Origin: Aggregatimonas sangjinii
Lineage (GTDB): Bacteria; Bacteroidota; Bacteroidia; Flavobacteriales; Flavobacteriaceae
Direction of reading: 5' to 3'
DNA: 64,000 bases
NCBI RefSeq assembly: GCF_005943945.1
Contig: NZ_CP040710.1
Span: 1,003,001-1,067,000 of the forward strand
A program made the translations under genes and the position numbers. A model generated the notes under the pieces. That model made no database searches. It was not told the DNA's origin and saw nothing but the letters and a program-made list of their open reading frames with translations. Positions 15,103 to 23,319 of this stretch are shown here, piece by piece (the first letter of the stretch is position 1; each line of letters starts with the position of its first letter).

Positions 15103-15828
15103 TCAGTTTCCGATCAGCATATACACCAAAGCGGCCAAGAGTGCTCCGACGATAGGGCCAAATACTGGAATCCAAGCATAGTACCAATGGCTGTGTCCCT
15201 TTGATTTTATGGGCAGAAGTGCATGCATGATTCTTGGCCCCAAATCCCGGGCGGGATTGATGGCATAACCGGTCGGGCCTCCAAGACTGATACCGATCGC
15301 TAAGACCAACAAGGCGACGGGAAGCGCATCTAGCGACCCCAGAGAAATATTTTCCTCGGCCATTTTCCCGCCAGCGATATAAAAGATGGCCAACATGAAA
15401 GCAAAGGTGGCAATCGCTTCCGTAAGGAAGTTCCAAAACGGACTCCTAATCGCCGGGGTGTTCGCAAAGGTGTTCAGGATACCTTCTTGATTTTCGGTTA
15501 TTTCATACTGCTTTTTATAGGTAAGCCAAACCAGGACCGAGCCCACCATGGCCCCTAAAAATTGTGCTAGAATATAACCGGGAACCAATTGCCATTCAAA
15601 TTTGCCGGCCGCCGCAAAACCTAGTGTGACAGCAGGATTTAAATGGGCTCCACTGATATCCGCCGATACAAATACCCCAACAAATACGGCAACGCCCCAA
15701 CCGATGGTAATGCCGACCCAGCCGGCATCGGAGCCCTTTGTACCCTTCAGCACCACATTGGCAACGATTCCGTTCCCGAGCAGCAGAAGGAGTGCTGTTC
15801 CGATAAACTCAAAAAGATATACCATCAT
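15103..15828 (-). CDS. Aquaglyceroporin-type MIP channel
   Basis: A 241-residue membrane channel with six transmembrane helices and two half-helices. Both NPA boxes are intact: GAHLNPAVTLG and GYAINPARDLGPR. The Asp after the second NPA-Arg is the hallmark of glycerol-conducting members (GlpF), so glycerol or another small polyol is the likely solute. No glycerol kinase or dehydrogenase gene is adjacent; it instead heads the esterase, SGNH and GH20 genes. Two tandem ATG codons (MM) start the protein and either could be used. Confidence 0.88.
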   Translation of the reverse strand: MMVYLFEFIGTALLLLLGNGIVANVVLKGTKGSDAGWVGITIGWGVAVFVGVFVSADISGAHLNPAVTLGFAAAGKFEWQLVPGYILAQFLGAMVGSVLVWLTYKKQYEITENQEGILNTFANTPAIRSPFWNFLTEAIATFAFMLAIFYIAGGKMAEENISLGSLDALPVALLVLAIGISLGGPTGYAINPARDLGPRIMHALLPIKSKGHSHWYYAWIPVFGPIVGALLAALVYMLIGN

Positions 15829-15938
15829 TGGCGAACGTTTAAGAAGGTCTGAAAATAAATAAAATTAATGAGAAACGATTTGTTAATGAACCCGCTATAC
15901 AGTTCCTTCCACTATGGCCCATGGCCTTCGAACTCTTG

Positions 15939-15980
15939 AGTCAACAATCAAGAGCCAAGAATCAAGAGCCAAGAACCAAG
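15939..15980. repeat. Heptanucleotide tandem array, locus 1
   Basis: Six consecutive 7-base units in phase: AGTCAAC, AATCAAG, AGCCAAG, AATCAAG, AGCCAAG, AACCAAG, all fitting A-R-Y-C-A-A-G apart from the final C of the first. A seventh degenerate unit, AATAATA, follows. It lies between the 3' end of the frameshifted hydrolase gene and the 5' end of the aquaporin gene, both on the minus strand. CTCTTGA at 15933-15939 and TCAAGAG at 15948-15954 form an inverted repeat, and CAAGAATCA at 15956-15964 can pair with TGATTCTTG at 16008-16016. It shares its period with the arrays at 18048 and 23113. Confidence 0.8.
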
Positions 15981-16064
15981 AATAATAACGAAAAGGGGTT
16001 TGTTTGCTGATTCTTGTAGGAGCGTGGTCATATTCGGTGGCTTCGTTGTCACCACTTGCGGTAT

Positions 16065-17299
16065 TCATTTTAGCAAGGATTGGTATATGAGCTGTCGCAT
16101 CATCGCACCGTAGTAGTTGTGGTAGGGTTGTACCTGCGTCATCAGGATTGCGATCAACTCTTCTTCAGGGTCGATAAAAAAGTAGGTGCAATAGGCACCG
16201 CTCCAATAATACTGACCGACGGAACCAAGCCTTTGCTTTCCGCAACATCAGTTGTAATTCCGAAACCGAGCCCGAAGCCTTGGCCAGGTGCCTGATAGAG
16301 ATTACCGACCTGATTCATCGTCATAAGTTCTACGGTCTTTGGGCTGAGGTATTGCCTTCCTTTCCAGATCCCCTTGTTCAAAAGCATTTGGCTAAAAACC
16401 ATATAATCGGTAGCGGTAGAAAAAAGTCCATGCGAACCCCCGTAGACCGTATTGCCCTCGATAGGCAATTGTTGATCAGAATTGACCATCTTCCCTTCAT
16501 CATTTCTATTGTGTACAGGGCCCCAACGGTTGTGCTTTTCCTGCGGGATATTATACCCGGTGTCCTTCATTCCTAAAGGGTCGAATAGGCGGATCTGTAG
16601 AAATTCTGCGGACGTCATTCCTGAAAAGTGTTCGATAAGCAAAGACAACACATCGGGAGAGGCGCTATAGTACCATTGTTCTCCCGGTTGACTTACCAAG
16701 GGCAGGCCGACCAAGGTGTTCACGCGACTCTCGATATTCTTTTGCGGATCAACATATAGGGCTTTGGCAATGGCGTTATCAAGTTCCGTTCCACCCAAGC
16801 CATGTGAAAAACCTGCCGTATGGGTCAATATTTGATGAATGGTCACTTTATTTTCGGCTGGCACGGTTGGGCTATCGAGACCTTTGTTTACGTCAGCCGC
16901 TACCTTGAGATCTTTGAATTCCGGCAGGTATTTCGAGACCGGATCGGTAAGCTGAAAATGCCCTTCCTCATAAAGCATCATAAAGGCTACGCTAACGATA
17001 GGCTTGGTCATAGACATGATATGAAGAATCTGATTTTCCTGCATTGGTGTGTTATCATTCATACTGCTTAAACCATAGGCTTTTTGGTGAACTACTTCAC
17101 CATTGAGCATAACGTAAGATACCGCTCCGGGTATGTTCCCTTCTTTCACCTCATTTTTGAGAAAAGTATCGTATCTGCCAAGCCGCTTCTTTGAAATGTT
17201 TTCTACCTTGGATTCCAACGCAATGGCTTGTGCTTGAGCTGTATATTGAAACGTAAATAGCAGAAGAGAAATGAAAAGTAAAGTGATTGTTTTTTGCAT
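16065..17299 (-). pseudogene. Serine hydrolase (class C beta-lactamase family), frameshifted near the C-terminus
   Basis: A secreted serine hydrolase with a signal peptide (ITLLFISLLLFTFQYTAQAQA). It has the SxxK motif (HIMSMTKPIVS), a Tyr motif (WYYSASPD) and a late HxG-like motif (GGSHGLFS), as in penicillin-binding-protein-like esterases. The uninterrupted frame ends at 16154 with an odd tail. One base missing at 16225-16226 (CC on the plus strand where CCC would keep the frame) explains it: in the restored frame the protein continues SVGQYYWSGAYCTYFF, then DPEEELIAILMTQVQPY, and ends in YQSLLK with TGA at 16065-16067. That tail is typical of the family and would give about 410 residues. 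Either the gene is a recent pseudogene or the base is a sequencing error; catalytic motifs lie upstream of the lesion. Confidence 0.85.
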
Positions 17300-17527
17300 T
17301 GGAAATCGTTTTGTTGGGAAGTGTTATATTCCATTGAATCAACTCATACAAGATAACTACTTTTCAACTATTTCGACCGGCTCTGTAAGGTATGTGCATA
17401 ATCGCAAGCCATAATTTCAGGATTTGGCATATTTTAAGGCTGTATCCTGTTCTTTTGTTAAAGAAATTTTTAACTTACGAGGCGAATTGAAAACCTAAAT
17501 AAATAACACCCTTAAAACGAAAGTACT

Positions 17528-17860
17528 ATGAGCGACAGAGATGACAAATTAGCGGCCCTAAAAGCAACAGCCGTATCCCAATTAAAGGAATGTGGCGTAT
17601 CGAACATCGACCATGATCAATTAGACGGCTACGTAAATAGCCTTCGGTCTATGGTAGATAATAAAGATGCCACCTTGGTTTCGGGTTCGGACGAGTCAGA
17701 GTTGGAAACCGTATACAGGAACTTCGTAGAAAAGAAATTAGGCGTTTCCGATAAAGAAAAAGGGATGTCGGCCATTCATAAGGTCGCCGATAAAATGTCC
17801 GGTATTCGTATGAAGAGTAGACCAGCATTCTATTATTTGGTAGCCCATGAGTTGAGCTAG
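17528..17860 (+). CDS. DUF2853 family protein
   Basis: A 110-residue soluble, highly charged protein. The pattern of an N-terminal helix, a TLVSGSDESELETV segment, then FVEKKLGVSDKEK and a closing SRPAFYYLVAHELS is that of DUF2853, a small all-helical family with no established function. The ATG at 17528 follows a long AT-rich leader. The gene stands alone, divergent from the serine hydrolase gene and convergent with the SMP-30 gene, and is closed by a strong terminator. Confidence 0.85.
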   Translation: MSDRDDKLAALKATAVSQLKECGVSNIDHDQLDGYVNSLRSMVDNKDATLVSGSDESELETVYRNFVEKKLGVSDKEKGMSAIHKVADKMSGIRMKSRPAFYYLVAHELS

Positions 17861-17886
17861 TCGAAGAATTTTAATGAATAGTAATC

Positions 17887-17917
17887 AGAGCCACCTTTAT
17901 TGCGTGGCTCTTTTTTT
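17887..17917 (+). terminator. Terminator after the DUF2853 gene
   Basis: AGAGCCAC pairs with GTGGCTCT across a nine-base loop, followed by seven T residues. Confidence 0.9.
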
Positions 17918-18047
17918 GGATAGTACTGTACATCTAAAAATTAGCTTTGGAGCGACAAGACCTGCCTCCGTCAGTCAGGGACAAGTTCACGTTTCAAGTT
18001 CAAAAAAGTTATGGTTCAGCGTAAGAAGTTGCTGGTTTTTTAATTTT

Positions 18048-18103
18048 CATCCAACATCCAACATCCAACATCCAACATCCAACATCCAACATCCAACATC
18101 TAA
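18048..18103. repeat. Heptanucleotide tandem array, locus 2 (CATCCAA)
   Basis: Seven perfect copies of CATCCAA (18048-18096) followed by one copy with a single change, CATCTAA (18097-18103). The change supplies the stop codon of the minus-strand SMP-30 gene: CTA at 18100-18102 reads as TAG. The array therefore starts at the very end of that coding sequence and runs away from it into the gap between two convergent genes. A looser run with GTTCACG, TTTCAAG and TTCAAAA units lies 45-65 bases before it. Confidence 0.95.
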
Positions 18104-19014
18104 TTCCGTACCCCCTTCACATTCATCTGCAGCGTAAACACCGAGTCCATTGCGGTTATGAACAAGAGGTCTTGATTTGGCCCCCCAAAAGTAACGTTGG
18201 CCGTCCATTTTTTCCCGGTGGGAATATGTTCTATTTGCTTTCCATTCTTATCGAATACGGTAACGCCATCCCCGGTCAGGTAGACATTTCCTTGATTGTC
18301 AATCGTCATTCCATCGGAACCCAGCTCGCAAAATAATGTCCCTTCCGATAGCATTCCATCTTCCAATATTTCGTAGGAGTACGTTTTATTGTTTCCCCTG
18401 TCCGAAACAAAAAGAGTTTTACCATCGGCACTACCAATAATGCCGTTAGGCCTGGCAAAATCATCTATCACTACTTTAATGTTGCCCATATCGGGGGAAA
18501 TATAATATACCTGTTCTTTTTTCATTGCACTTTCACTACGTTCCCAATAAGGTCTTTGATAATAAGGATCGGTAAAATAAATGCCACCGTTCGGGTCGAC
18601 CCAAAGATCGTTGGGTCCGTTAAGGTCGAGGCCTTCGAATTGTTCCCAGAGTACCGTAACGTTCTTATCGGAATCGATACGCCACAATTGAAATTTCTCA
18701 TCGGCACAAGCGAGAAGATTTCCTTCGTGATCGAAATAAAGTCCGTTTGCGCGTCCGGAGGGCTGCATAAATACTGAAACCCCTTCGTCGGGAGACCATT
18801 TCAAGATTCGGTTGTTCGGTTGATCTGTAAAAAAGACATTACCCTCGGCATCTACCGCAGGCCCCTCCGTAAAGGTATAATCATCGGCGACCAGAACGAG
18901 TTCGGCACCTTCGGCAATGATATCGGAATGTTGGCTTTGACAAGCGGCAGAAGACATGAGAAGAGCCACCAAGGGTATAAATGTAATTTTTAGATTTAAA
19001 GTCATAAGAATCAT
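18100..19014 (-). CDS. SMP-30/gluconolactonase-family lipoprotein
   Basis: A 304-residue exported protein. The signal segment ends in MSSAACQSQ, a fitting lipobox. The rest is a six-bladed SMP-30/LRE-like propeller: FTEGPAVDAEGNVFFTD, GLDLNGPNDLWVDPNGGIYFTDP and ARPNGIIGSADGKTLFVSD contain the conserved metal-site Glu, Asn and Asp. Members hydrolyse sugar lactones or similar esters. The ATG overlaps the upstream deacylase-like gene by four bases (ATGA), so the two are coupled; a second ATG three codons on is possible. Its stop codon lies inside the last unit of the heptamer array. Confidence 0.88.
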   Translation of the reverse strand: MILMTLNLKITFIPLVALLMSSAACQSQHSDIIAEGAELVLVADDYTFTEGPAVDAEGNVFFTDQPNNRILKWSPDEGVSVFMQPSGRANGLYFDHEGNLLACADEKFQLWRIDSDKNVTVLWEQFEGLDLNGPNDLWVDPNGGIYFTDPYYQRPYWERSESAMKKEQVYYISPDMGNIKVVIDDFARPNGIIGSADGKTLFVSDRGNNKTYSYEILEDGMLSEGTLFCELGSDGMTIDNQGNVYLTGDGVTVFDKNGKQIEHIPTGKKWTANVTFGGPNQDLLFITAMDSVFTLQMNVKGVRN

Positions 19015-20669
19015 TTAGTGTTTTCCTTCCATCCCGGTCCACGAACTACTCTGCCGGGTAAAGCACCTGTATGTTCGCCTTTTTCTAGGACGGGAGTGCC
19101 GTTTACCAATACGTATTGCATTCCAGTGGCGTATTGGTGTGGTTTTTCGAAAGTGGCATTGTCGGTTATGGTATTTGCATCGAAGATAGTAATATCGGCA
19201 TAGTACCCTTCTTTAAGGGCACCCCGTTTCTTTAGTTTAAGATTGGTGGCAGGGAGTGTGGTCAGCTTATATATGGCCTCCTCTAATGAAAGTACCTTTT
19301 CTTCTCGCACGTATTTTCCCAAAAGTCGCGCAAAAGAGCCATACGCCCGGGGATGTGTACTTTGTTCCAAAAATACACCTTCATTGGTGTAGGAACCGGC
19401 ATCGGAGCAAATAGACATATACGGAAGGGCCAATTTTTTCTTTATGTTTTCTTCCGACATCGAAAAATAAACCACTTGTATGCGGCTGTCGTCTTCACGA
19501 ATAAGATCGACAATAGTTTCCGCAGGCGAAATATTGCGCTCCTTGGCAATATCGGCCAGCGTTTTTCCGATGTTGGTGCGCATTGCTTTGTTCCGAAAAC
19601 CGACCATAAGAATATTTTCTGGCGGTACGTGAAAATCGACCTCCTTGATCATTTGTTCCCTCTTCTCTTGTTGACCGATAAGCTTCATGGTCGCGGCATG
19701 TCCGCCTTCCTTGGCCCATGCTGGGAGTAGTACATTCAATCCGGTCGAGCTCGCATTGTACATATACATGTCGGTCGTTATGGGCAACCCTCTTTTTCGA
19801 GCGGTCTCAACAAGGGAAATGGCGGAATCCAATAAGTGCCAATTCGCATCGCCGGATGCCTTAAAATGATAGATTTCGGCTGCTATGTTCGCTTTTTCGG
19901 AAATGGTGATCAGTTCATTTACCGCTTCGAGCAAATCCCCTTCCTCATCGCGAATGTGGGATATGTACATCCCGTCATATTTCGAGACCTCTTTGGCCAA
20001 TTCAATAATTTCATCGGTTGTCGCATGGCCACTGGGCACGTATATCAGAGAAGTAGAAAGACCTACTGCCCCTTCTTCCATAGCTTCTCGCGTCAGGCGT
20101 TTCATGGTTTCCATTTCCGCATCGGTAGGTGGCCTGTTCTCGTAACCAATCGTATGTTTTCGTAAGGTGGCATTTCCGATAAAGGAAGCAATATTCGTAG
20201 AAACGCCTTTATTTTCAAGGTATTCAAGATACTCGCCAAGCGTAGACCATTCGATATCGTAAGTTAGGGTAGACTGGCCCGCTTTCATATCTTCCTTCAT
20301 AGCATCGTTTAAAGGACCCATTGAATTTCCCTCACCAAGTACTTCCAAGGTCACCCCTTGCCTGATATCGCCCTGTGATCTACCGTCGACGATGAGCGAT
20401 TCATTGGCCCAGCTCAGCATATTGATGAACCCTGGCGCGACGGTGAGTCCTGTGGCATCAATTATCGAACGACCTTTTGCATCATCTAATTTCCCGATAG
20501 CCGCAATCGTATCGGCATTGATGCCGATGTCCCCTTGATAGGCTTTTTCGCCGGAGCCATCCAAAATCTCACCGTTTTTGATCAGCACATCGAAGGTGGT
20601 CGCAGGACCGGTACAGCCGATAATCAGAAGGCATAACGGTAGCACGTACTTTAAGATGACAATTTTCAT
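19011..20669 (-). CDS. N-acyl-D-amino-acid deacylase-like amidohydrolase lacking the HxH motif
   Basis: A 552-residue lipoprotein (signal ending LLIIGCTGPA). It follows the D-aminoacylase pattern throughout: an N-terminal beta-sandwich (LIKNGEILDGSGEKAYQGD), QGVTLEVLGEGNSMGP, IYHFKASGDANWHLLDSA, DMYMYNASSTGLNVLLPAW, and SICSDAGSYTNEG with the catalytic aspartate. Where active members have APGFIDxHxHxD, this protein reads APGFINMLSWANESL, so both first-motif histidines and the following Asp are gone. It may use a different metal arrangement or be non-catalytic. It is coupled to the SMP-30 gene, suggesting joint processing of one substrate in the periplasm. Confidence 0.85.
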   Translation of the reverse strand: MKIVILKYVLPLCLLIIGCTGPATTFDVLIKNGEILDGSGEKAYQGDIGINADTIAAIGKLDDAKGRSIIDATGLTVAPGFINMLSWANESLIVDGRSQGDIRQGVTLEVLGEGNSMGPLNDAMKEDMKAGQSTLTYDIEWSTLGEYLEYLENKGVSTNIASFIGNATLRKHTIGYENRPPTDAEMETMKRLTREAMEEGAVGLSTSLIYVPSGHATTDEIIELAKEVSKYDGMYISHIRDEEGDLLEAVNELITISEKANIAAEIYHFKASGDANWHLLDSAISLVETARKRGLPITTDMYMYNASSTGLNVLLPAWAKEGGHAATMKLIGQQEKREQMIKEVDFHVPPENILMVGFRNKAMRTNIGKTLADIAKERNISPAETIVDLIREDDSRIQVVYFSMSEENIKKKLALPYMSICSDAGSYTNEGVFLEQSTHPRAYGSFARLLGKYVREEKVLSLEEAIYKLTTLPATNLKLKKRGALKEGYYADITIFDANTITDNATFEKPHQYATGMQYVLVNGTPVLEKGEHTGALPGRVVRGPGWKENTK

Positions 20670-20762
20670 TTCAAATTAGTATTAGAAGTTTCTAAATATA
20701 GTTAAAATAGAATAATGGACATTTACTCCATACAAGCAACGCACCATAAGCCGACGTATTCG

Positions 20763-20770
20763 TATTTTTG
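20763..20770 (+). promoter_or_regulatory. Probable mazG -7 box (TATTTTTG)
   Basis: An exact TAnnTTTG match 14 bases before the mazG ATG. No TTG is found at the expected upstream spacing. Confidence 0.5.
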
Positions 20771-20784
20771 ATCAAATTTTAAGG

Positions 20785-21558
20785 ATGAATTCCAGGGAAG
20801 AACAACTCAAAGCTTTTGACCGCTTACTCACCATCATGGACGAACTACGTGCGCAATGCCCGTGGGACAAGAAGCAAACGATGCAAAGCTTACGCCATTT
20901 GACCATCGAGGAAACCTATGAACTGGGTGACGCTATTTTGGAGAATGATTTGGAGGAAGTAAAAAAGGAACTTGGCGATGTGCTGCTTCACCTTGTTTTT
21001 TATGCCAAAATAGGCAGTGAGACAAACGATTTTGATATTGCCGATGTCTGCAATGATATCTGTGAAAAGCTCATCAATCGTCATCCGCATATTTATGGAG
21101 ACGTTACCGTAGCCGACGAGGAAGACGTAAAGCGAAATTGGGAGAATATAAAATTATCAGAGGGTAAGAAAAGTGTTTTGGAGGGCGTGCCGAACAGCTT
21201 GCCGGCTTTGGTAAAGGCCAATAGGATTCAGGACAAGGTCGCAGGTGTAGGCTTCGATTGGGAAAGACCGGAACAGGTTTGGGAAAAAGTTCAGGAGGAG
21301 TTGGAAGAGTTTCAAGACGAGGTTAAAAAAGGCGATAGGCTAAAAATGGAAGCCGAATTCGGGGATGTACTCTTTTCTATGGTGAATTATGCCCGTTTTT
21401 TGGATATCAACCCTGAAAATGCCCTAGAGCGGACGAACAAAAAATTCATCAAACGCTTTCAGTATCTGGAAGGTAAGGCGAAAGGTATTGGAAAGTCCCT
21501 AAAGGAAATGACCTTGGCCGAGATGGATGTTTTTTGGGAGGAAGCAAAGAAACAGTAG
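20785..21558 (+). CDS. mazG: Nucleoside triphosphate pyrophosphohydrolase MazG
   Basis: A 257-residue house-cleaning enzyme that hydrolyses NTPs to NMP and pyrophosphate. Two tandem MazG folds are visible. The first has CPWDKKQTMQSLRHLTIEE and ELGDVLLHLVFYAKI, the Mg-binding EExxE...ExxD pattern. The second has ELEEFQDEVKK and EAEFGDVLFSMVNYAR. The central LEGVPNSLPALVKANRIQDKV linker is conserved in the family. It has its own promoter box and no co-directional neighbour. Confidence 0.94.
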   Translation: MNSREEQLKAFDRLLTIMDELRAQCPWDKKQTMQSLRHLTIEETYELGDAILENDLEEVKKELGDVLLHLVFYAKIGSETNDFDIADVCNDICEKLINRHPHIYGDVTVADEEDVKRNWENIKLSEGKKSVLEGVPNSLPALVKANRIQDKVAGVGFDWERPEQVWEKVQEELEEFQDEVKKGDRLKMEAEFGDVLFSMVNYARFLDINPENALERTNKKFIKRFQYLEGKAKGIGKSLKEMTLAEMDVFWEEAKKQ

Positions 21559-21793
21559 GCGGTGGGCATTTGGCAGTACCGGATGGCATGCTCTCTTTTC
21601 TAAATCTCCGGGGTTGCCGTCAAGCCGTACGCAAATCATATTCCAAACCTATCAATCCCTAACCCTTGAATTCCGTTAAGTATTCCGATACGGCTGAAAT
21701 GGGGTTCGCATAATCTGTGCAATTTACATTGCAGTCTTAAATTTTGGGTCTAAAAGCGCAGCGGTCTTACATCTTCAAAGGGATAGTGACGAC

Positions 21794-22321
21794 TTATTTC
21801 CCGAACTTTTCTTTGTTGAATTTTTCCGATTCTCCTTTGGGAATCGATAGCGAAACCCAATCGTTACCTTTAATCATTTTACCCAATAAAACGATTTGTC
21901 CTACGTGGCTTGCATAGTGGGCTAATTGCCGATTGATAGCTTCAATAAGAGTATGCTTTTCATTGCGTATCAGTATAACGGAATCAAAATTGTCTTCATT
22001 GATTGCGTTCAGGGCATCGAAGACGCATTGCCACCCATTTTCCCAAGCATGCAGAATTTCGGTTTTGGTCGTGTAGGGATCGGTGAATTCCGTTTCGCGG
22101 TCGCGCCAGGATTTTTCACCGTCTTCGGTCAAGAAATTAGTCCACCTGCTACGCATATTGCCCACCATGTGCTTAACGATAATGGCGATGGAATTGTCCG
22201 AGTCTGAATGCGTCCAATAAAAATCCTTTTCTGAAAGCTGATCAAAAGTTTTATTGCCGAGCATCCGATATCTCTTAAACTCGAAAAAAGCACTCTTGAT
22301 GTAATTCGCGGCCTGGCTCAT
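21794..22321 (-). CDS. DUF1572 / DinB-like protein
   Basis: A 175-residue four-helix-bundle protein of the DinB/YfiT superfamily, matching the DUF1572 subgroup. Histidines spaced as in a metal-binding triad are visible: IVKHMVGNMRSRW near residue 50 and LAHYASHVGQIVLLGKM near residue 140. The conserved MRSRWTNFLTEDGEK segment follows the first. Members include thiol-dependent transferases, but no activity can be assigned here. It is followed upstream by a terminator from msrB and is likely transcribed alone. Confidence 0.8.
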   Translation of the reverse strand: MSQAANYIKSAFFEFKRYRMLGNKTFDQLSEKDFYWTHSDSDNSIAIIVKHMVGNMRSRWTNFLTEDGEKSWRDRETEFTDPYTTKTEILHAWENGWQCVFDALNAINEDNFDSVILIRNEKHTLIEAINRQLAHYASHVGQIVLLGKMIKGNDWVSLSIPKGESEKFNKEKFGK

Positions 22322-22361
22322 GTGGCAATTTAGTCTCTAAAAAACTGGTTTGTTGAATATA

Positions 22362-22402
22362 CTAAAATAAAAAATCCCAAATCCTTTAAGGACTTGGGAT
22401 TT
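22362..22402 (-). terminator. Terminator after msrB
   Basis: On the minus strand a 13-base stem (AAATCCCAAGTCC, with one mismatch to its partner) is followed by ATTTTTTATTTT. It separates msrB from the DUF1572 gene. Confidence 0.85.
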
Positions 22403-22422
22403 AGAATTTGGTGTATGATGCG

Positions 22423-22923
22423 CTATTTGTTGTCAGGCACGAAATCCAAGGCGACCCCATTGATACAATGGCGAAGCCCCGTAGGTTCCGGCCCGTCGTT
22501 AAAAACATGACCTAAGTGTCCGCCACAAGTGGCACAGTGTTCCTCGGTACGTTCATAACCGGTCTTATAATCGACATCGTAGGCCACATTGCCTTCGATC
22601 TCTTTATAAAAACTAGGCCACCCGGTACCGGAATCGAATTTGGTTTCACTCTTGAACACTGGCGTACCACAACCGGCGCAGACATAGGTGCCTTCGGCCT
22701 TATTGTCGAGTAAATCGCTAGTAAACGGACTCTCGGTTGCTGCTTCCCGCAATACGTAATACTCATCCTCGGCAAGCTCCGCCTTCCATTCCGCCTTCGT
22801 TTTAGTCACTTCAAATGAAGTTTCGGTCTTGGCTTCGGCTTTTGTCGCCATTTCCTCTTTTTGTGCATTGCCCTTACATCCCATAAATACAAGACATAAG
22901 CCTAGTACTATTTGCTTTATCAT
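22423..22923 (-). CDS. msrB: Peptide-methionine (R)-S-oxide reductase, lipoprotein form
   Basis: A 166-residue protein that reduces methionine R-sulfoxide. The start at 22923 puts a lipoprotein signal first (IVLGLCLVFMGCKGNAQ); an in-frame extension upstream would hide it. The zinc-site CxxC pairs are YVCAGCGTPVF and HCATCGGHLGH; FDSGTGWPSFY is the family signature and GLRHCINGVALDF carries the catalytic cysteine. The signal indicates action in the periplasm or at the outer membrane, repairing oxidised envelope proteins. A charged 25-residue linker separates anchor and enzyme. No msrA is adjacent. Confidence 0.93.
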   Translation of the reverse strand: MIKQIVLGLCLVFMGCKGNAQKEEMATKAEAKTETSFEVTKTKAEWKAELAEDEYYVLREAATESPFTSDLLDNKAEGTYVCAGCGTPVFKSETKFDSGTGWPSFYKEIEGNVAYDVDYKTGYERTEEHCATCGGHLGHVFNDGPEPTGLRHCINGVALDFVPDNK

Positions 22924-23112
22924 ATGATTTTGTTTTTCTATTCGTCGCTTTTCGCTGCGTTTCCTTTCAAATTTAAGGCTTTTTCGAACTAATCTGCTCA
23001 TCCTTTCGAAAGGAGTTTGAATTTAATGCGTGAACACACCATTCGCCAGCAGGAAACAAGGAATAAGCGCAAGGTATACCGATTTGGATTTGAATTTTTT
23101 ACTCTAAATTTT

Positions 23113-23252
23113 CTCCATTCTCCATTCTCCATTCTCCATTCTCTTTTCTCTTTTCTCTTTTCTCCATTCTCCATTCTCTGTTCTCTGTTCTCCGCTTTCC
23201 GCATCGAACATACAACATCGAGCACCGCGCATCCAACATCCTGTATCCCGTC
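23113..23252. repeat. Heptanucleotide tandem array, locus 3 (20 units)
   Basis: Exactly twenty 7-base units in unbroken phase over 140 bases. In order: CTCCATT four times, CTCTTTT three times, CTCCATT twice, CTCTGTT twice, then CTCCGCT, TTCCGCA, TCGAACA, TACAACA, TCGAGCA, CCGCGCA, TCCAACA, TCCTGTA, TCCCGTC. The first half is homogeneous and the second keeps the period while the units drift. One unit, TCCAACA, is a rotation of the locus 2 unit. The array lies between the msrB start and the collagen-like gene's terminator. Open frames across it in several phases are a by-product of the period. Confidence 0.9.
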
Positions 23253-23254
23253 CT

Positions 23255-23292
23255 AAAAGAAAAACCCCGCTCTCATAGAAGAAAGCAAGGTT
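23255..23292 (-). terminator. Terminator after the collagen-like gene
   Basis: On the minus strand AACCTTGCTTTC pairs (with G-T wobbles) with GAGAGCGGGGTT, followed by TTTCTTTT. It lies immediately beside the heptamer array. Confidence 0.7.
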
Positions 23293-23319
23293 ATCTCGTT
23301 TTGTATACAACGGAAAGGT

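Follow-up and report, generated by a model that had tools for sequence, protein, structure and literature searches.

Tandem repeats with a seven-base unit are the preferred form of short-period repetition in the genome of the flavobacterium Aggregatimonas sangjinii, whose MazG protein likewise has flavobacterial relatives. The subject of this analysis is a window of 64,000 nucleotides of that genome (G000:C1:1003001-1067000; a single contig of 4.724 Mb, NZ_CP040710.1), in which a first-pass annotation had pointed to three intergenic heptanucleotide arrays and had proposed either a mechanism that copies seven bases at a time or a structure that requires a seven-base pitch. The preference for period 7 is confirmed genome-wide, with many different units; a special structure or device is not supported. 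In our view the arrays are probably heptanucleotide simple-sequence repeats of a known class, to which slipped-strand replication would have added copies in the intergenic spacers of this lineage. The kind itself is already known, since heptanucleotide arrays have been described in other bacteria; what goes beyond it, and deserves a second look, is the separation of array birth from array growth, with the bias at the growth stage, and the relatedness of the units within one genome.

The sample consisted of 140 stretches spread over the genome which, together with the window, comprise 2.832 of the 4.724 Mb. It was scored by ungapped self-matching at lags 2-30 (match +1, mismatch -2), and units that nearly repeat a shorter unit were removed. 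At a score of at least 18, lag 7 gave 26 segments, or 22 loci after two mosaics had been merged; the other short lags gave none (lags 2-5 and 11-13), one (lags 6, 8 and 10) or two (lag 9). Lags 14, 21 and 28 had 4, 3 and 2 segments, which are partly the period-7 arrays again, and lags 15, 18, 22, 24 and 27 had 2, 4, 1, 3 and 2; none were seen at lags 16, 17, 19, 20, 23, 25, 26, 29 and 30. The first-pass annotation had offered to give up its idea if period 7 proved no commoner genome-wide than period 6 or 8, and the counts in these 2.832 Mb (26 vs 1 vs 1) are on its side. Among 80 loci of other Flavobacteriaceae (1.6 Mb, lags 2-21), period 7 was again the largest class at this score: lag 7 gave 7 segments and lag 9 gave 3, single segments came from lags 4, 6, 14 and 18, and lag 8 gave 0. 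The top-scoring array of any other period listed among these relatives is a perfect 9-bp array of a Kordia sp. locus (L063:2419-2477; TCTAACAAG x6.6).

All three arrays of the window were found again by Tandem Repeats Finder (TRF) and in the sequence itself, two of them strong and one short and imperfect, and all are intergenic, as had been said. The first strong array, (CATCCAA)7.6 at 18048..18100 (-), abuts the stop codon of an SMP-30 gene and is perfect (TRF: period 7, 7.6 copies, 100% match). The second, with the units TTCTCCA, TTCTCTT and TTCTCTG, was delimited by TRF and the lag scan at 23111..23202 (-), TRF alone reporting 23111-23193 with period 7, 11.9 copies and 90%. It is prolonged by an in-phase degenerate tail, read from the sequence at 23202..23251 (-), whose units are CATCGAA CATACAA CATCGAG CACCGCG CATCCAA CATCCTG TATCCCG; judged by eye, the phase is kept without indels up to 23251 as the unit drifts. 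The unit of the 18048 array thus reappears in phase within this tail (CATCCAA at 23230-23236), and TCCAACA at 23232-23238 is, as the first-pass annotation had noticed, a rotation of it. The third array (unit CAAGARY; 15938..15982, -; TRF and sequence) lies between an aquaporin and a serine-hydrolase gene and is a weak, imperfect repeat of period 7/14, which TRF describes either with period 14 (15938-15981, 3.1 copies, 90%) or with period 7 (15949-15982, 4.9 copies, 81%) and which scores only 12 at lag 7 and 21 at lag 14. It is probably real and eroded, because lag-7 scores of 12-13 (8 in the 2.83 Mb) outnumber those at lags 5, 6, 8, 9 and 10 (0-2 each). Second-order Markov surrogates, one for each of 20 of the genome's own stretches (444 kb), contained no segment scoring at least 14 at periods 5-9, and the arrays of the window exceed chance. 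The suggestion that they stand next to accessory genes fares poorly: the neighbours are an aquaporin, a PF00144 serine hydrolase, DUF2853, SMP-30, an amidohydrolase and MsrB, and their order is partly conserved in several relatives.

The bias to seven acts mainly on the growth or retention of arrays and little on the first duplication. Leaving the period-7 arrays aside, intergenic DNA contained 135 exact two-copy duplications with a 6-base unit, 41 with a 7-base unit and 10 with an 8-base unit, where 107, 28.6 and 6.9 were expected (order-3 Markov, 10 surrogates); the ratios of 1.26, 1.43 and 1.45 do not make 7 special. The low-score bins over all sampled DNA held 240 (score 7-8) and 36 (score 9-11) at lag 7, slightly more than at lags 5, 8 and 10 (185-198 and 17-27) and fewer than at lag 6 (439 and 74) or lag 9 (409 and 51). 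At scores of at least 25 there were 22 segments at lag 7 vs 0-1 at lags 5, 6, 8, 9 and 10. As two-copy duplications show no excess at 7 and the long arrays are nearly all of lag 7, the preference acts mainly during growth or retention. The published suggestion of a polymerase footprint lumps the birth of a duplication with the growth of an array, two stages that this genome separates, and a flavobacterium with dozens of arrays would be a convenient place for a direct measurement of the slippage step size.

The arrays are largely confined to the spaces between genes. Gene calls were greedy open reading frames (ORFs) of at least 100 amino acids (aa), those with more than 15% of their length covered by arrays being removed as spurious; 31 of 32 merged arrays (score at least 12) lie outside these ORFs in a sample that is 87% coding. 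When unfiltered ORFs of at least 80 aa are used, 7 of the 38 rows of the lag-7 list fall inside ORFs of 87-215 aa, most of them frames within the arrays themselves; the one of 163 aa is retained after the filter and the one of 215 aa is doubtful. The gaps that hold arrays are co-directional in 21 cases, convergent in 8 and divergent in 2 (n=31), compared with 712, 157 and 253 among all 1122 gaps of at least 80 bp. Arrays are thus rarer than expected in divergent gaps (2/31 vs 253/1122, p 0.018) and perhaps commoner than expected in convergent ones (p 0.059). Hand merging of the 38 rows gave 35 arrays, and 7 of these, by hand count, are no more than 50 bp from a called start, the starts being uncertain greedy calls.

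The sites of the window arrays are empty in every relative compared (3/3, 8/8 and 7/7), and the arrays look lineage-specific. An orthologue of the SMP-30 gene is present in eight of nine congeners, and none of the eight has a segment of period 5-9 scoring at least 11 within about 1.5 kb on each side. Among the 80 family loci, the aquaporin/hydrolase pair is conserved in three and the msrB neighbour pair in seven, with an array in 0/3 and 0/7 of them.

Under slipped-strand replication, an array would start from a chance short duplication, an event for which the counts show no special excess at 7. From about three 7-bp copies onward, slippage by 7 nucleotides (nt) would outpace any other step size, as the length distribution suggests. 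Point mutations then alter the units and leave the phase unbroken, as the in-phase tails show. Mismatch repair is expected to remove slippage of 1-4 nt and not loops of 7 nt; with MutS-type genes present (the genome has three MutS_V matches), it would erase the short steps and spare the long ones. That the step should be 7 instead of 5, 6 or 8 would rest on the polymerase-footprint suggestion. Arrays would persist where nothing is disturbed, for example in the spacer between a terminator and the next promoter, and would need no present function.

The locus of msrB (methionine sulfoxide reductase B; 22423..22923, -, Pfam PF01641 (SelR), start assumed at 22923) has an arrangement of this sort. 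A promoter-like motif, TANNTTTGAAAGGA, lies upstream of the gene at 22962..22975 (-), about 135 bp from the array; it is conserved in 8/8 msrB gaps (the window and seven relatives) and resembles the Bacteroidota -7 element. At the other end, a terminator-like hairpin of the upstream gene (23263..23292, -; a 12-bp stem including G-U pairs, then a U run) folds with -23 kcal/mol (window 23246-23312, -; z -4.09), and the array begins about 12 bp downstream of it. Being past the hairpin and short of the conserved motif, the array sits in what appears to be the terminator-promoter spacer. Measured between tblastn ends, the msrB gap is 396 bp here vs 123-205 bp in the relatives.

Several observations weigh against slippage as a complete account. 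Array lengths are bimodal (22/26 strong segments score at least 25), so that either a growth threshold or arrays that arrive pre-formed would be needed. The arrays are unevenly distributed, with 12 in the sector 0-1.07 Mb, 0 in 1.07-2.3, 19 in 2.3-3.4 and 1 in 3.4-4.72, where 812, 689, 771 and 560 kb had been sampled in that order (chi-square p 1.3e-5, for bins picked after seeing the data); in these four sectors they are sparse around the inferred terminus and the inferred origin. These two points were placed from the GC skew of the sampled stretches, which peaks at about 1.93 Mb (terminus) and is lowest at about 4.35 Mb (origin), and from the direction of the rRNA genes, and dnaA, at 2.25 Mb, lies away from the inferred origin. 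In 25/35 arrays C outnumbers G on the inferred leading strand (p 0.017), opposite to the intergenic background, in which G exceeds C on that strand. A hand tally of C-rich to G-rich arrays on the leading strand gives 8:7 between two leading-strand genes and 8:1 between two lagging-strand genes, and because gene direction confounds the replication-strand bias we keep it as modest. To these may be added the folding of the 18048 array as RNA, taken up below, and the recurrence of identical units at separate loci (9 pairs vs 0.57 expected), which plain slippage does not predict.

The strong arrays have 23 units. Once rotation and strand are disregarded, those 9 pairs are identical, and 23 pairs, the identical ones included, differ by at most one mismatch; 300 within-unit shuffles gave a mean of 0.57 and a maximum of 3 for identical pairs, and a mean of 5.4 and a maximum of 11 for near-identical ones. 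A previous set of 22 units had 7 identical pairs vs a maximum of 3 in 300 draws of random intergenic 7-mers. Because the units are alike beyond chance within the genome, they hint at spread within it; something specific to this genome, ectopic spread for instance, may be superimposed on slippage. In its full form such an explanation would have an array, or its single strand, serve as the template of new arrays elsewhere, with short homologies as the sites of template switching or ectopic recombination; the unit families would then be genome-specific and slippage would adjust the array length. We regard it as unlikely; the relatedness of the units gives a testable sign of spread in trans. It is favoured by the relatives' units, which are no nearer to those of this genome than shuffles are (8 units, p 0.74), a result on which we rejected unit families common to this genome and its relatives. 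AGGTTTC x3 occurs at three loci here and in none of the 9 congeners, and CATCCAA x3, among this genome and the 9 congeners, nowhere but in the window array. Moreover, a 21-bp element (TTCGACTGCGCTCAGTGTGAC) is common to two array sites, 578 kb and 3381 kb, being exact at G000:C1:578186 and 3380960 and each time 8 bp from a period-7 array with GGTGCTC units; of its 12 near-copies (at most 4 substitutions) in 2.83 Mb only these two are exact, and the 10 degenerate ones are more than 2.6 kb from arrays. On the other hand, all 9 identical pairs stem from just two families, GGTGCTC (four loci) and AGGTTTC (three loci). The flanks of the three AGGTTTC arrays have no match at any other place sampled. 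The whole genome has four GGTGCTC arrays with at least three exact copies, and only the one at 3380989 has a flank that recurs, in the 578 kb mosaic and at one further site. GGTGCTC x3 is also found at one site in 1/9 congeners (G003) and at one locus in 1/298 other family genomes (G088), and the shuffle control preserves unit composition, not every sequence preference of slippage. A more elaborate version, that of a spreading satellite whose arrays would be copied in trans to new intergenic sites, with heptamer families peculiar to each lineage, 7-nt stepping at growth and not at birth, and a preference, contrary to the genome skew, for units that are C-rich on the leading strand, seems to us likewise unlikely.

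Regulatory arrays, whose copy number would tune how strongly the neighbouring gene is transcribed or how stable its RNA is, would have their analogue in Haemophilus, where heptanucleotide phase variation is known and the tracts lie upstream of the hmw genes (PMC2651432, in excerpt). The sense RNA of the 18048 array, which abuts a stop codon, forms a more stable fold than its shuffles (-13.2 kcal/mol, z -6.26, with G-U pairs), that of the 23111 array a somewhat more stable one (z -2.57; 4/200 shuffles as good), and the 7/35 arrays near called, if uncertain, starts are consistent with such a role. Phase variation calls for an array in a promoter or reading frame; the three window arrays are outside genes, and at msrB, the site with a mapped promoter motif, some 135 bp separate the array from that conserved motif. 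The window arrays are also missing at the matching sites of relatives, divergent gaps are under-used, and the units as DNA are no more structured than shuffles; a regulatory role seems improbable. This last result, from 26 units with 60 shuffles each (mean fraction of more stable shuffles 0.55 and 0.59 on the two strands), together with the empty sites in relatives, also speaks against the seven-base-pitch structure of the first-pass annotation, the RNA fold of the 18048 array pointing the other way. The annotation's other half, the period-7 preference itself, stands genome-wide and over many units; we rejected such a structure on the folding of the DNA units. More broadly, a sequence-directed device with that pitch, be it a repeat-binding protein or a repeat-adding reverse transcriptase like DRT10 or telomerase, would account for a period common to arrays whose units change. 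DRT10 does make tandem-repeat DNA, and the largest array region is some 7.5 kb away from the only RVT_1 match of this genome. Yet in the DRT10 example studied, one templated sequence is added to complementary DNA as 9-nt repeats, as against many units here (PMC12632851, in excerpt), and the RVT_1 gene, which stands beside a bSEFIR match, is matched best in PADLOC by the reverse transcriptase of type II-A retrons (407.8 bits). RNA-templated repeat addition was rejected on this ground, the nearness to the arrays being taken as coincidence, and a device of either sort is very improbable (no search for a repeat-binding protein was made). Nor does a UG17-type reverse transcriptase with a SLATT partner fit, the sole RVT_1 match being of retron II-A type (SLATT itself was not searched for). 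Slipped-strand expansion of a known class of repeat remains the reading that we prefer.

The first-pass annotation knew of no described system of this kind in Flavobacteriia, a class to which Gramella, Aequorivita and Elizabethkingia belong. TAACTGA and other heptamer repeats were, however, reported from Gramella forsetii, Aequorivita sublithincola and Elizabethkingia anophelis in 2015 (MacGregor 2015, PMC4679880; this and the other papers of this paragraph in excerpt). The closest likeness is to the long simple-sequence repeats (LSSR), among which heptanucleotides are the most abundant long-unit repeats in most genomes surveyed (Mrazek 2007 via PMC4679880); heptanucleotide repeats are over-represented in many genomes (PMC4692102). 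There as here, 7-nt units dominate the long-unit tandem repeats and many different units occur; the arrays of A. sangjinii are longer than chance, have period 7 in excess of periods 4-6 and 8-11, and are mainly non-coding. They may differ in that units at different loci are here related beyond composition. The preference of bacterial long-unit repeats for seven bases was noted in 2007, and papers of 2015 suggest the polymerase footprint. The TAACTGA repeats of Beggiatoaceae, Cyanobacteria and some Bacteroidetes resemble ours as intergenic heptamer arrays, with other heptamers in flavobacteria, and in being missing from close relatives at some sites; unlike ours, of which 7/35 are within 50 bp of greedy starts, the majority lie just upstream of start codons (PMC4679880). 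In the 2.83 Mb, TAACTGATAACTGA has 0 occurrences on both strands, and the arrays are not of the TAACTGA unit. Among the 80 family loci there is one TAACTGA x2 site, and Flavivirga rizhaonensis has 2.7 copies of rotated TAACTGA (L040:10850-10868). In Xanthomonas and Nostoc, GGGAATC and GGGGA(T/C)T repeats likewise make up many-copy intergenic heptamer arrays; a single unit dominates among those, which may form G-quadruplexes, whereas the units here are varied (PMC4692102). Two copies of GGGAATC or GGGGATT occur 0 times in the 2.83 Mb (GGGGACT was left out). The short tandemly repeated repetitive (STRR) elements of cyanobacteria are tandem heptanucleotides, like the arrays described here, and one of their units, CCCCAGT, has 0 two-copy sites in the sampled DNA of this genome. 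PMC4692102 mentions tandem heptanucleotides in Calothrix, and the excerpt of PMC4060949 holds nothing on flavobacteria. A search of the open-licence literature, by general terms rather than by the heptamers, found no paper on this unit set.

Some features of the arrays and their surroundings were noted in passing. The largest period-7 region of the sample, by eye, is a mosaic of about 1 kb beside a gene stop codon (L094:12052-13080, equal to G000:C1:578052-579080), in which a G-rich part (TGCTCGG-like) gives way to a C-rich one (ACCTCAA, then CTTCNNN units) and which holds single GGTGCTC units. This mosaic and the tail in the window give the eye the impression of units with four fixed and three free positions, a rule that we do not claim. 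A polarity of unit decay along the arrays, striking by eye in a few, was dropped, as it held for 16/23 overall (p 0.09).

In the window, the genes beside the other two arrays are an aquaporin-family gene (MIP; 15103..15828, -, Pfam PF00230), an SMP-30/gluconolactonase-like gene (18100..19014, -, Pfam PF08450) and the PF00144 serine-hydrolase gene (16065-17299, -). The last has an apparent frameshift near its 3' end, after which the expected C-terminal sequence resumes in another frame; this appears to be a pseudogene or a sequencing error. The retron type II-A-like reverse transcriptase (L094:2058-4637) stands beside the bSEFIR-matching gene and a small gene that has no PADLOC match, with, by eye, an IS3-like transposase alongside. 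In the same stretch, a B12-dependent methionine synthase frame (L094:7600-10818) carries a DUF559 (endonuclease-like) domain at residues 448-554, between two B12-binding domains, which resembles a mobile element inserted in frame into a housekeeping gene; short peptide motifs resembling APPSGAGGA are found near the start of this frame and at the end of the DUF559 insert.

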